Under the pieces are notes generated by a model, which had not been told where the DNA came from, searched no databases, and saw only the letters and a program-made list of their open reading frames with translations. Both the position numbers and the translations under genes were made by a program. Of a stretch of DNA of 64,000 nt, positions 15,959 to 33,584 are shown in pieces; the first letter of the stretch is position 1, and each line of letters begins with the position of its first letter. Source of the stretch: Phycisphaerales bacterium (lineage in GTDB: Bacteria > Planctomycetota > Phycisphaerae > Phycisphaerales > SM1A02); NCBI GenBank assembly GCA_029268515.1, contig JAQWNP010000006.1, forward strand, positions 248,001-312,000, written 5' to 3'.

Positions 15959-16091
15959 AACTAAGAATCATACCCACCAACTGATCAACACCCCGCTTGA
16001 AGCCCAGCAATCCGCCTACTTTGAGAAATTTTTCACATAGGTCCGGTCTCCCCTTGGCCCCTCGGCTCTAAAGAGGTACAAGAGCCAGATC

Positions 16092-16367
16092 ATGGTGGCC
16101 AACCCAACCGGCGAGAAAAAGCCAAATATCGCCCGAAACCGCATGTGGCGACTATCGGGCCTCGGCTTCACAATGGCTAGCGAAATCGTGGCCGGCTTAC
16201 TCATCGGCTGGTTGATTGATGTGGTGGTTGGTACCAAGGATACATGGATCATTGTTGGCACCGTCACAGGGCTCATTATTGCTCTGGTTAGCGCGATCAA
16301 GATTGGGCTCTCAGCAAATCGGCAGGCAATCACTGATTACAAAAAGCAGCAAGAAGACCGTTCCTAA
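16092..16367 (+). CDS. AtpZ/AtpI-like small membrane protein of the ATP synthase cluster
   Basis: 91 residues with two TM helices: GLGFTMASEIVAGLLIGWLIDVVVG and TWIIVGTVTGLIIALVSAIKIGL. A helix, an acidic/Gly turn and a second helix ending in Lys is the AtpZ/F0F1-assembly (AtpI-related) pattern. Such proteins assist c-ring assembly or cation supply to ATP synthase. It is the first gene of the ATP synthase cluster; the next gene begins 33 nt later. The N-terminus is basic and polar, probably cytoplasmic. The symbol is left open because AtpZ and AtpI cannot be told apart by eye here. Confidence 0.8.
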   Translation: MVANPTGEKKPNIARNRMWRLSGLGFTMASEIVAGLLIGWLIDVVVGTKDTWIIVGTVTGLIIALVSAIKIGLSANRQAITDYKKQQEDRS

Positions 16368-30823: not shown

Positions 30824-31360
30824 ATGCAAGGCGAACAACTCTGGGCTCCCTGGCGAGCAACCTATCTTCGTGACCTGAAATATAAAGCGGACGCTTCAGG
30901 GAAAGAAGTGGCCAGTATTGATAATTTCTTGGCCACCTATTGGCTAACTCCTGAAAAAGATCAGGAGCATCTGGTCATCCATCGCAATGATTTTGGAATG
31001 ATCTTACTGAATCGATTTCCTTATACATGCGGGCATCTTCTTGTTGCAATAGGAGAGCCACGTCCCACCCTTCTCGATTATGACGCCGATCAGCGCCGCG
31101 CATTCTGGGATCTGATTGAACTAGCAACAGCACTGGTACATGCCACACTGAACCCACAGGGCATCAACTTCGGCATCAATGAAGGTGCTGCTGCGGGGGC
31201 TGGTTTGCCTGAACATCTTCACGCCCATTTGGTACCAAGGTGGAACGGTGATACCAACTTCATCACTGTTGTTGGTGATGTACGAGTCATGCCTGACTCA
31301 CTCCAGAAGATCGCGACAGACTATCGTCAGCAATTAGCCTCACTTCTTCTTGATACCTAA
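30824..31360 (+). CDS. HIT-family nucleotide hydrolase/phosphorylase
   Basis: 178 residues. The catalytic HLHAH triad of the histidine-triad motif is at residues 131-135, followed by LVPRW. The fold begins LWAPWRATYL, as in the Ap4A phosphorylase-like group of bacteria. FGMILLNRFPYTCGHLLVAI forms the strands before the active site. The CxxC pair found in many of these proteins near the N-terminus is missing. The protein should split dinucleoside polyphosphates or related adenylates in the cytoplasm. It is divergent from the ABC-F gene with 127 nt between starts, so promoters for both lie there. Confidence 0.9.
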   Translation: MQGEQLWAPWRATYLRDLKYKADASGKEVASIDNFLATYWLTPEKDQEHLVIHRNDFGMILLNRFPYTCGHLLVAIGEPRPTLLDYDADQRRAFWDLIELATALVHATLNPQGINFGINEGAAAGAGLPEHLHAHLVPRWNGDTNFITVVGDVRVMPDSLQKIATDYRQQLASLLLDT

Positions 31361-31379
31361 ATAAAAAAGCGGCGACCGC
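31361..31379 (-). terminator. Possible weak intrinsic terminator (minus strand)
   Basis: Read on the minus strand: GCGG, a TCG loop, CCGC, then six T. The stem is only 4 bp but all GC. It sits right after the HIT stop and would end a minus-strand transcript coming from the gene-free block at 31380-31760. The short stem makes the call weak. Confidence 0.35.
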
Positions 31380-31760
31380 ACAGGTACTGTGAATTGCCCA
31401 CGTCCGCCATGGTTTGCTCGAACCCAGGATCAAGGTGGGCTCACCTGCCGACGATCCAGGACTTCCACTCTTTGGAGGCTTGCCCGTCGTCGCGGATCAG
31501 CGATCCCATGGGGTTCAATAGGCTCGAGAAAAAATACCAGGCGAACAAGGGCCACCACCCCTGGCGGCCGCTGCCAGTTAGACAGTACCTCCACAATGGA
31601 GGTAGGGCGAGGCATTTAGGCAATGTTCCGGCAATTCATGGACAGAAGTTCTATACTATGGGCCGCGACCAGCACGATCGGTGCTGCGAGCGGCTGGTCG
31701 AAATCTCACTCCTAGCTCTTCCTGTCCGGCGGCAGTGTTGAGCTTCGGGAACAGAACAAG
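31380..31760 (-). ncRNA. Candidate structured RNA, unassigned
   Basis: About 380 nt without a convincing gene, although several short frames are open on both strands, as is common in structured RNA genes. It seems richer in GC than nearby gaps. Visible stems include ACCTCC/GGAGGT around 31590-31605 and a larger imperfect stem from GACCAGC to GCTGGTC around 31666-31700. On the minus strand it ends at a possible terminator (31361-31379). I looked for RNase P, tmRNA, SRP and 6S landmarks on both strands and found none that hold, so its identity is open. Strand is inferred from the terminator. Confidence 0.3.
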
Positions 31761-31772
31761 GTGGCAGAACGC

Positions 31773-32063
31773 ATGAACCGTGCTCTTAGCTTTATTACAG
31801 TTGGATCTTCACTAATCACAGTAACTGCCTTGGTGGGCTGTAGTTCCCCAAATAATGTGAGCACCAATGCTATTCTTTCTAATCTGACGCCCGAGTTACA
31901 AGGACTCACTGAGAGAAGCGTTGATGTCCAGAGCCATATGGCTGTGACTGGCAATGTGGAGTTTCGAGAGTTCTGGGGTGATTTAGGACGTGCCACGTAT
32001 ATCGACCATCCCAGCCGGCTCAGTCCCTACCCAATCGTCTACACCAGTGGTCAGCCTCGCTGA
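31773..32063 (+). CDS. Small lipoprotein of unknown function
   Basis: 96 residues from the ATG at 31773, which has AAGGTGG 8 nt upstream; a GTG at 31761 lies inside that site. A type II signal (FITVGSSLITVTALVGC) gives lipid attachment at about Cys23. The mature part of about 74 residues is polar and ends in a Pro/Tyr/Arg-rich tail (PSRLSPYPIVYTSGQPR). I recognise no family. Residue +2 after Cys is Ser, so outer-membrane sorting is possible. It stands alone, followed by 147 nt with a hairpin and then an MFS gene. Confidence 0.78.
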   Translation: MNRALSFITVGSSLITVTALVGCSSPNNVSTNAILSNLTPELQGLTERSVDVQSHMAVTGNVEFREFWGDLGRATYIDHPSRLSPYPIVYTSGQPR

Positions 32064-32157
32064 TTTTCCGTACCTGTGTTTTGCCAGTGACGCGACGATG
32101 TGGGCATCGCATTTCTTGGACTGACTTAATTGATCATAAAATTGCAGTTTCGATTTG

Positions 32158-32187
32158 CGCTTGAAGAAACCTTTGCTCCTTCAAGCG
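32158..32187. promoter_or_regulatory. 9-bp hairpin before the MFS gene
   Basis: CGCTTGAAG (32158-32166) and CTTCAAGCG (32179-32187) pair perfectly around a 12-nt loop. It lies 23 nt before the ATG of the transporter gene at 32211. No T-run follows, so it is not a standard terminator. It may be an operator or affect translation of the transporter. Evidence is the symmetry alone. Confidence 0.4.
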
Positions 32188-32210
32188 TAGTCACATGCTG
32201 ATAGGCACAC

Positions 32211-33584
32211 ATGCAACTGAGTGTTTTTCGCCTGGTTAAAACATTTGTCGCCTCGTTTCATCCAAAACAGATGCCCGAGCTCAGTCGTCACGCTTACCAG
32301 AAGGAGCTTATTGCTTGGTCTTTGTTACCGTTGATGACTGGCGCCGCTGAAGGCAAGGTCGTTGGCGTCATCGTTAAGAATGCCTACGCAGGTGTGGTCT
32401 CTGATGGACTGCTCAATCTGATTGTGGCGATTCTCATCGCATCTAAGGCGTTTGCCAATATCACCAGCCTCGGCTGGGCTGGAATGAGTGCTGGAAAGCA
32501 CAAAATTCAGTTCGCCAACATGCTCATGTTTATCACTGTGCTGCTTGTTGCAGCCATGGCCCTGGCGCCTTTTAACGCCCTCGGTGTGTGGATCTTCCTG
32601 GTGGGCGTCATTGGCGTGCGCATCTGCTGGACTGGCGTAGTCACCATTCGTACCAGTGTCTGGGCAGCGAACTACCCACAGCACGAACGTGGCCGAATTA
32701 CCAGCCGCCTGTTTATTCTCCACACGCTACCGGTTGCGGGTATCAGCGCCGTGATAGGTCAGGCGATGGACTGGAATGCTAATGCTTTCCGAATCATCTT
32801 CCCGCTTGTCGCCATCGCAGGAACATTTGGCGCCTTAGCATATGGAGGCGTCAAGGTTCGCGGTCATAAAGCACTGCGAGCAGCCGAACGCAAAAATGCA
32901 GGGATTGGCATTAAGTCATCACTTCGACAAGGATTGAAAATCCTCAACAGTGATCGTTTATTTCGGCGCTTTGTACTAACGCAATTCGTTTTTGGTTTTG
33001 GCAATCTCATGGCAATGGCGCCACTCGTGATCATATTGAAAGATCAATTTGAGCTCGCATATTTCGGATCACTCATGCTGCTGATGACGATACCGATTGT
33101 TGTCATGATGCTCTGTATTGGTCTTTGGTCGCGGCTCTTGGACAAAGTACACATCATTAAGTTCCGGCGAATTCACAGTTGGACCTTTGTGATCACCATT
33201 TTGCTCATGTTCATAGCCACGGTAACGTCTTCCCCATTTTCACTTTGGATTGCTTCCATCATGCTTGGTGTGGCACAAGGTGGTGGTATTTTGGCGTGGA
33301 ACCTCGGGCACCATGACTTTGCCCCATTGGAAAAGAGTGGGCAATATATGGGTGTCCACGTCACCCTATTTGGCATTCGAGGAATACTGGCGCCTTTGGC
33401 GGGCGTTGGCCTTTATCAGGCCTTAGCAAGCTGGCCCACATGGGATGGACCAGTGGTCTTTGCTGTCAGCGCTGCCATTAGTGCCTCTGGCGCTATTGGA
33501 TTCCTGCTTATATCTCCACCGAACCGGTCTCAGCAGCGAGCATCGGCCGTTCTACCTGGCTCGAGCCAAGACGCTGCAGATTGA
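32211..33584 (+). CDS. Major facilitator superfamily transporter
   Basis: 457 residues with about 11-12 hydrophobic segments, including FANMLMFITVLLVAAMALAPF, GVWIFLVGVIGVRICW, FVLTQFVFGFGNLMAMAPLVIIL and LMLLMTIPIVVMMLCIGLWSRLL. A central cytoplasmic loop (KALRAAERKNAGIGIKSSLRQGL) divides the two six-helix halves. The ASIMLGVAQGGGILAWNLG segment is typical of MFS helix 10. No signature tells the substrate. The first 40 residues are soluble. The gene stands alone, with a hairpin just upstream. Confidence 0.82.
   Translation: MQLSVFRLVKTFVASFHPKQMPELSRHAYQKELIAWSLLPLMTGAAEGKVVGVIVKNAYAGVVSDGLLNLIVAILIASKAFANITSLGWAGMSAGKHKIQFANMLMFITVLLVAAMALAPFNALGVWIFLVGVIGVRICWTGVVTIRTSVWAANYPQHERGRITSRLFILHTLPVAGISAVIGQAMDWNANAFRIIFPLVAIAGTFGALAYGGVKVRGHKALRAAERKNAGIGIKSSLRQGLKILNSDRLFRRFVLTQFVFGFGNLMAMAPLVIILKDQFELAYFGSLMLLMTIPIVVMMLCIGLWSRLLDKVHIIKFRRIHSWTFVITILLMFIATVTSSPFSLWIASIMLGVAQGGGILAWNLGHHDFAPLEKSGQYMGVHVTLFGIRGILAPLAGVGLYQALASWPTWDGPVVFAVSAAISASGAIGFLLISPPNRSQQRASAVLPGSSQDAAD

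Follow-up and report, generated by a model that had tools for sequence, protein, structure and literature searches.

A divergent 6S RNA gene in a Phycisphaerales bacterium, with a predicted Bacillus-type release switch

The gap at positions 31361-31772 of a 64,000-nt stretch of DNA from a Phycisphaerales bacterium (the window) almost certainly holds a minus-strand 6S (SsrS) RNA gene, of a divergent planctomycete version and about 213 nt long, at approximately 31575-31363. The 6S RNA of other bacteria blocks RNA polymerase by mimicking an open promoter. A sequence-only reading of the window had left the gap unassigned, having seen no match to 6S RNA by eye; the RNA is 6S RNA, too divergent for the eye or for the gathering score of Rfam.

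Results

The gene and its surroundings

The gap lies between the stop codon of a HIT-domain protein gene (31358-31360) and the ATG, at 31773, of a small lipoprotein-like gene. Its size, previously put at about 380 nt, is 412 nt. The RNA gene (31363-31575) would fill about half of the gap, the remainder being spacer to the lipoprotein-like gene. The features are as follows.

30824..31360, plus strand: HIT-domain protein gene, convergent neighbour (PF01230, E = 3.6e-9)
31363..31575, minus strand: 6S RNA gene (ssrS), about 213 nt, predicted ends (RF00013 match 31555-31392; match to covariance model R1 31536-31412; fold z −3.98)
31582..31587, minus strand: predicted −10 box TACTGT of the 6S promoter (count of TAnnnT in relatives)
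31532..31575, minus strand: outer closing stem, 5' strand (single-sequence fold only)
31369..31413, minus strand: outer closing stem, 3' strand (single-sequence fold only)
31521..31531, minus strand: helix P2, 5' strand, template side of the predicted pRNA (covariation)
31508..31520, minus strand: central bubble, 5' strand (R1 alignment); predicted pRNA start U31520 or U31518
31500..31507, minus strand: helix P3, 5' strand (covariation)
31447..31496, minus strand: apical arm, comprising P4, P5, P6 and loop (covariation)
31496-31490/31454-31447, minus strand: helix P4 of the apical arm
31485-31482/31462-31459, minus strand: helix P5 of the apical arm
31478-31475/31468-31465, minus strand: helix P6 of the apical arm
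31437..31444, minus strand: helix P3, 3' strand (covariation)
31425..31436, minus strand: central bubble, 3' strand, ACCUUGAUCCUG, aligned by R1 with ACCUUGAACCAAG of E. coli ssrS
31414..31424, minus strand: helix P2, 3' strand; also 3' strand of a predicted collapse helix with the distal 5' bubble
31363..31368, minus strand: U-run after the closing stem, six U, intrinsic-terminator-like, abutting the HIT stop codon
31773..32063, plus strand: small lipoprotein-like gene, divergent to the RNA gene (no Pfam match at E ≤ 0.1)

The predicted pRNA start follows by homology from U44 of the E. coli RNA, which we take to be the pRNA start there. The gap had been called GC-rich, and the numbers agree: GC content is 60.1% in the RNA gene and 57.5% in the whole 64,000-nt stretch, against a median of 50.0% in other gaps, the comparison set being 20 gaps, none shorter than 100 nt, that separate open reading frames of at least 150 aa in a rough gene call. 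The element region is present as a single copy in its own genome; the stretch is therefore not a repeat, and that reading was ruled out.

Upstream of the lipoprotein-like gene, TATACT at 31652-31657 on the plus strand, kept in the same-genus relative, is a possible −10 box of that gene, and 31662-31694 contains a hairpin-forming inverted repeat with 14-nt arms (79%).

Homology to known 6S RNAs

At gathering score, Rfam finds only a tRNA-Gln in the window and nothing in 31361-31772. The cmscan search against Rfam that the sequence-only reading had proposed as a check does match RF00013, the 6S family, by E-value, though under the gathering score: the match runs from 31555 to 31392 on the minus strand (32.9 bits, below the gathering score of 46.4; E = 5.1e-5) and covers the full model, positions 1-187 of 187. 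With RF00013 searched against the whole genome, this is the sole place at E ≤ 10 (E = 7.7e-5). Because the gathering score is Rfam's operating cut-off and not a biological feature, we still file the window RNA as 6S. SRP RNA was ruled out as a candidate, being found elsewhere in the genome (C14).

Compared with other 6S RNAs of the Planctomycetota, those of the window's family form a divergent group. RF00013 is matched at E ≤ 0.01 in 114 of 244 genomes of the phylum and over the gathering score in 64 of them, whereas in the window's family it is matched at E ≤ 1 in 32 of 121 genomes and exceeds the gathering score in 0 of 121. Thirty of the 32 were fetched as loci, and in all 30 the RF00013 match encloses a BLAST match to the window element; in one of the 32 (G025), a weak RF00013 match (E = 0.99) sits away from that genome's own element.

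The assignment also holds in the reverse direction, with a model built from the planctomycete elements. Alignment A1 comprises 47 non-redundant sequences out of 75 elements, chosen by a core pattern that fixes part of the RNA; trimmed to A2, it gave the covariance model R1, which thus represents 47 Phycisphaerae elements and no known 6S RNA. R1 scores 114.9 bits on the window (31536-31412), which is one of its training sequences. Run with filters off on 40 kb of E. coli K-12, R1 has its best of 18 matches at 16009-16139, inside ssrS (15984-16166) and on the correct strand, at 24.7 bits (runner-up 12.5 bits) and E = 3.8e-4, a rough value, as R1 E-values are, that becomes about 0.04 for the whole genome, the 40 kb having been chosen to hold ssrS. 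The R1 alignment places ACCUUGAACCAAGGGUUCAAGG of E. coli opposite the window-type 3' bubble and P2. With default filters at E ≤ 0.01, R1 does not recover E. coli ssrS, and blastn against E. coli genomes gives no match.

Within the same order, RF00013 exceeds its cut-off where R1 matches in two genomes, G045 (57.3 bits, R1 86.9 bits) and G041 (47.3 bits, R1 100.1 bits). In the phylum search, three more genomes of this order match RF00013 (the window's own, G040 and G049), again at the R1 place. Across the phylum, R1 at E ≤ 1 matches 11 of the 20 best RF00013 loci, each on the same strand and inside the RF00013 match, and misses the other 9; it also misses G151, of the same class, although RF00013 passes there at 52.9 bits.

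The window RNA shares with RF00013 and E. coli ssrS a rod shape, a central bubble between P2 and P3, a full-length model match and a reciprocal model match, with GAGCC before the bubble and ACCUUGA...GGGUUC(A/G)AG after it; it differs in scoring under the gathering cut-off, in the sequence of its apical arm and in its neighbours, which are zapA and fau at E. coli ssrS and the HIT and lipoprotein genes here. A new class of structured RNA, resembling 6S in outline alone, would be in keeping with the absence of any family genome over the gathering score (0 of 121) and with the RF00013 loci that R1 misses. That reading is contradicted by the same-order genomes that exceed the cut-off at the R1 place, by the reciprocal match to ssrS and by the single RF00013 match genome-wide, and we give it next to no weight. 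We conclude that the core is homologous to E. coli ssrS, with compensatory changes across the Phycisphaerales.

Occurrence among planctomycetes

Searching 61 genomes at the DNA level for 30824-32300 reveals a conserved island within 31402-31556. Leaving out the window's own genome and the same-genus one, the island is a separate match in 21 of 59 genomes at 69-84% identity, the HIT gene having 65-76%; the same-genus copy has 90.7% identity over 160 nt. Searching named genomes other than its own with the core pattern gives 74 records, by title 63 Phycisphaer- or Planctomycet-, 5 other planctomycetes (Singulisphaera 3, Kuenenia 2), 5 uncultured bacterium and 1 Limnohabitans. These titles point to a Phycisphaerales origin of the window. 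The contig labelled Limnohabitans (L065) bears a planctomycete 6S element, and because of this we doubt the label: it is probably a mislabelled or mixed metagenome-assembled genome.

Of 251 genomes from the order, 178 have an R1 match under strict filters and 73 have none; in the class, 31 of 198 genomes have one under strict filters (own 1, family 8, order 16, other class 6). Two loci outside the order, L255 and L256 (genomes G290 and G217), have weaker R1 matches (41 bits) and a different bubble, and are perhaps further divergent 6S RNAs.

The HIT gene and the small lipoprotein gene are frequent neighbours of the 6S element. Of the 74 named loci, 51 have a HIT gene within 1500 nt of it, 41 with the opposite-strand arrangement seen in the window and 10 on the same strand; in 22 of the 74, some of them on short contigs, no HIT gene was found in the fetched DNA. 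A lipoprotein gene lies within 1500 nt in 54 of the 74, with 53 on the opposite strand and 1 on the same. The lipoprotein-like gene at 31773-32063, which matches no Pfam family at E ≤ 0.1, thus stays beside 6S in these 54 loci.

Helices, strand and promoter

The minus strand of 31575-31363 folds into one unbranched rod at −98.7 kcal/mol (z −3.98; none of 200 shuffles folds as well), in which a closing stem, a central bubble and an apical arm are present; P2 to P5 are supported by covariation and the outer closing stem by single-sequence folds. The gap had been described as a possible structured RNA gene with several stems, and the fold, which beats 200 shuffles, and the covariation, which supports the helices, bear this out. 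Among 12 single-sequence folds, those of several relatives enclose the 6S core in a further long helix and carry an additional hairpin on the 3' side of the core (for example at about 2578-2855 of L092 and about 7528-7805 of L085).

The five helices comprise 32 named pairs. In A1 these are paired in 92.5% of cells, versus 32-47% for slid versions, and there are 102 double-changed cells versus 32.5 ± 4.4 after shuffling (0 of 500 shuffles as high). In the apical arm, columns 116-182 of A1 hold A-U 20 times, U-A 14 times, G-C 8 times and C-G once. RNAalifold, unaided on A1, finds 24 pairs, 9 of them changed on both sides; folded freely, just 31 of the 47 rows form P2. Because A1 had been selected by a pattern, a second set, A3, was made by joining the window to 60 R1 matches that lie outside its family (61 rows). 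In A3, 93.0% of cells are paired, 23 of the 32 pairs have changes on both sides, and double-changed cells number 258 versus 83.5 ± 9.4 (0 of 500 shuffles as high); the pair counts in both sets lean towards structure, because A1 is pattern-fixed and A3 is fitted to R1. Covariation in relatives, suggested in the sequence-only reading as a check, therefore comes out positive, with compensatory changes beyond shuffles in both A1 and A3.

Fold energy proved useless as a test of strand: the plus strand of the same interval has z −4.04 (0 of 200 shuffles as good) against −3.98, and since both strands fold alike, fold energy is no guide to strand. The excess in A1 of G-U cells (89) over A-C cells (7) indicates the minus strand. 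The equally good plus-strand fold is what would be expected if the stems belonged to the HIT mRNA, as its terminator and 3' untranslated hairpins, or formed a cis element. That origin has a very small probability in view of the G-U excess (89 versus 7), the HIT gene's location on the strand of the RNA in 10 of 74 loci and its absence from the fetched DNA, on some short contigs, in 22 of 74, and the element's own predicted −10 box. A short protein-coding gene is, for practical purposes, dismissed: the plus strand does contain open frames of 115 and 76 aa, but the five short frames in 31361-31772 match 0 Pfam families at E ≤ 0.1, in line with the earlier impression that they do not resemble proteins, and relatives show loop insertions of many lengths and compensatory pairing.

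The minus-strand 6S gene presumably has its own promoter and is transcribed. In 45 of 47 sequences, the window included, TAnnnT occurs within 80 nt 5' of the core, a stretch that reaches into the outer stem; first-order Markov resampled controls give 14.8 ± 3.0 (maximum 24 in 300 rounds). The window's TACTGT at 31587-31582 would place the transcription start near 31575. At the other end, the closing stem runs into six U (31368-31363), consistent with the minus-strand terminator beside the HIT stop that had been proposed from the letters; a U-run is also found in the same-genus relative L131. A simple terminator scan, covering loops of 3-8 nt only, does not list this minus-strand end.

A perfect inverted repeat at 31586-31604, TACCTCCA-N3-TGGAGGTA, overlaps the upstream edge of the predicted 6S −10 box and is possibly an operator; inspection by eye shows another inverted repeat at that place in the same-genus relative.

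Predicted release mechanism

As described in PMC8876501 and PMC11077062, 6S RNA binds polymerase carrying the primary sigma factor, pRNAs are made on it as template, and it leaves the enzyme once P2 unwinds; E. coli 6S RNA then folds a 9-bp 3' hairpin, and in B. subtilis and A. aeolicus the 3' strand of P2 joins the distal 5' bubble in a collapse helix. In the literature searched, one paper, PMC8876501, uses the phrase 'central bubble collapse helix'. By analogy with these systems, planctomycete 6S RNA would likewise bind RNA polymerase and support pRNA synthesis.

The window RNA has the same complementarity as B. subtilis 6S-1 RNA, as far as the latter is described in the available part of PMC8876501: the distal 5' bubble is complementary to the 3' strand of P2, over 8 bp in the window. 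Across the 61 rows of A3 the longest collapse helix has a mean of 8.18 bp, versus 5.45 (maximum 5.87) with the 5' bubble shuffled and 7.26 (maximum 7.57) with partners swapped, in 200 rounds each. When refolding is simulated with a 14-nt pRNA template kept unpaired, the collapse helix forms in 56 of 61 A3 rows, versus 20.8 ± 2.7 (maximum 28, 40 rounds) with a shuffled bubble; in A1, with the template blocked, 29 of 47 rows give the collapse helix and 18 of 47 neither alternative. E. coli ssrS refolded in the same way gives its 9-bp 3' hairpin, as PMC8876501, in the part available, describes. The collapse helix is 78.7% paired in A1, and its covariation there is modest, at a level reached by 7 of 500 shuffles.

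The E. coli-type hairpin between 3' bubble and P2 received little support: 75.2% of its cells are paired (slid 22-50%), on a 3' side of the alignment that is pattern-fixed, its covariation is not above shuffles, and simulated refolding produces it in 4 of 61 rows of A3 and 0 of 47 of A1. With the template open, 31 of 61 A3 rows already show at least 5 collapse pairs in the free fold, and for this reason part of the collapse helix may belong to the ground state; its distal 4 bp are compatible with an intact P2.

The collapse pairing suggests a Bacillus-type release switch in planctomycete 6S RNA. Once P2 opens, its 3' strand would switch to the distal 5' bubble, forming 8 bp in the window, so that the release helix would be the B. 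subtilis-type collapse helix predicted for the window RNA and not the 9-bp 3' hairpin of E. coli ssrS. An RNA of the mycobacterial Ms1 type, which is 6S-like and binds polymerase core without sigma, is structurally related to 6S RNA (PMC9130861, PMC11077062, in the portions accessible), and so deserves consideration here; we judge it very improbable, since the homology to E. coli ssrS and RF00013 includes the central bubble and the collapse helix fits pRNA-driven release.

Discussion

The window RNA is a new, divergent member of the known 6S family. Among the matches listed in the literature searched, which covered few subscription papers, there was no description of 6S RNA in Phycisphaerae, and for planctomycetes PMC5673643 alone, in its available text, bore on the point. 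That text reports Thermogutta terrifontis as having no 6S homolog and, with Wehner et al. 2014 as its source, says the same of two further planctomycetes; the accessible part of PMC2864571 states that 6S is extended in its supplement, where an earlier planctomycete description may stand. RF00013, by comparison, matches 114 of 244 phylum genomes, which need not include Thermogutta terrifontis or the two species of Wehner et al. 2014, and R1 matches 178 of the 251 genomes from the order. For the family of the window, a lack of 6S RNA by the Rfam cut-off is a threshold effect.

We raise, as a tentative and somewhat doubtful proposal, that compensatory change keeps the collapse switch throughout the Phycisphaerales, which would make it the ancestral mode of 6S release and the gammaproteobacterial 3' hairpin a derived one. 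The alignments could extend RF00013, and the predicted collapse helix would offer natural variants for testing how 6S RNA lets polymerase go.
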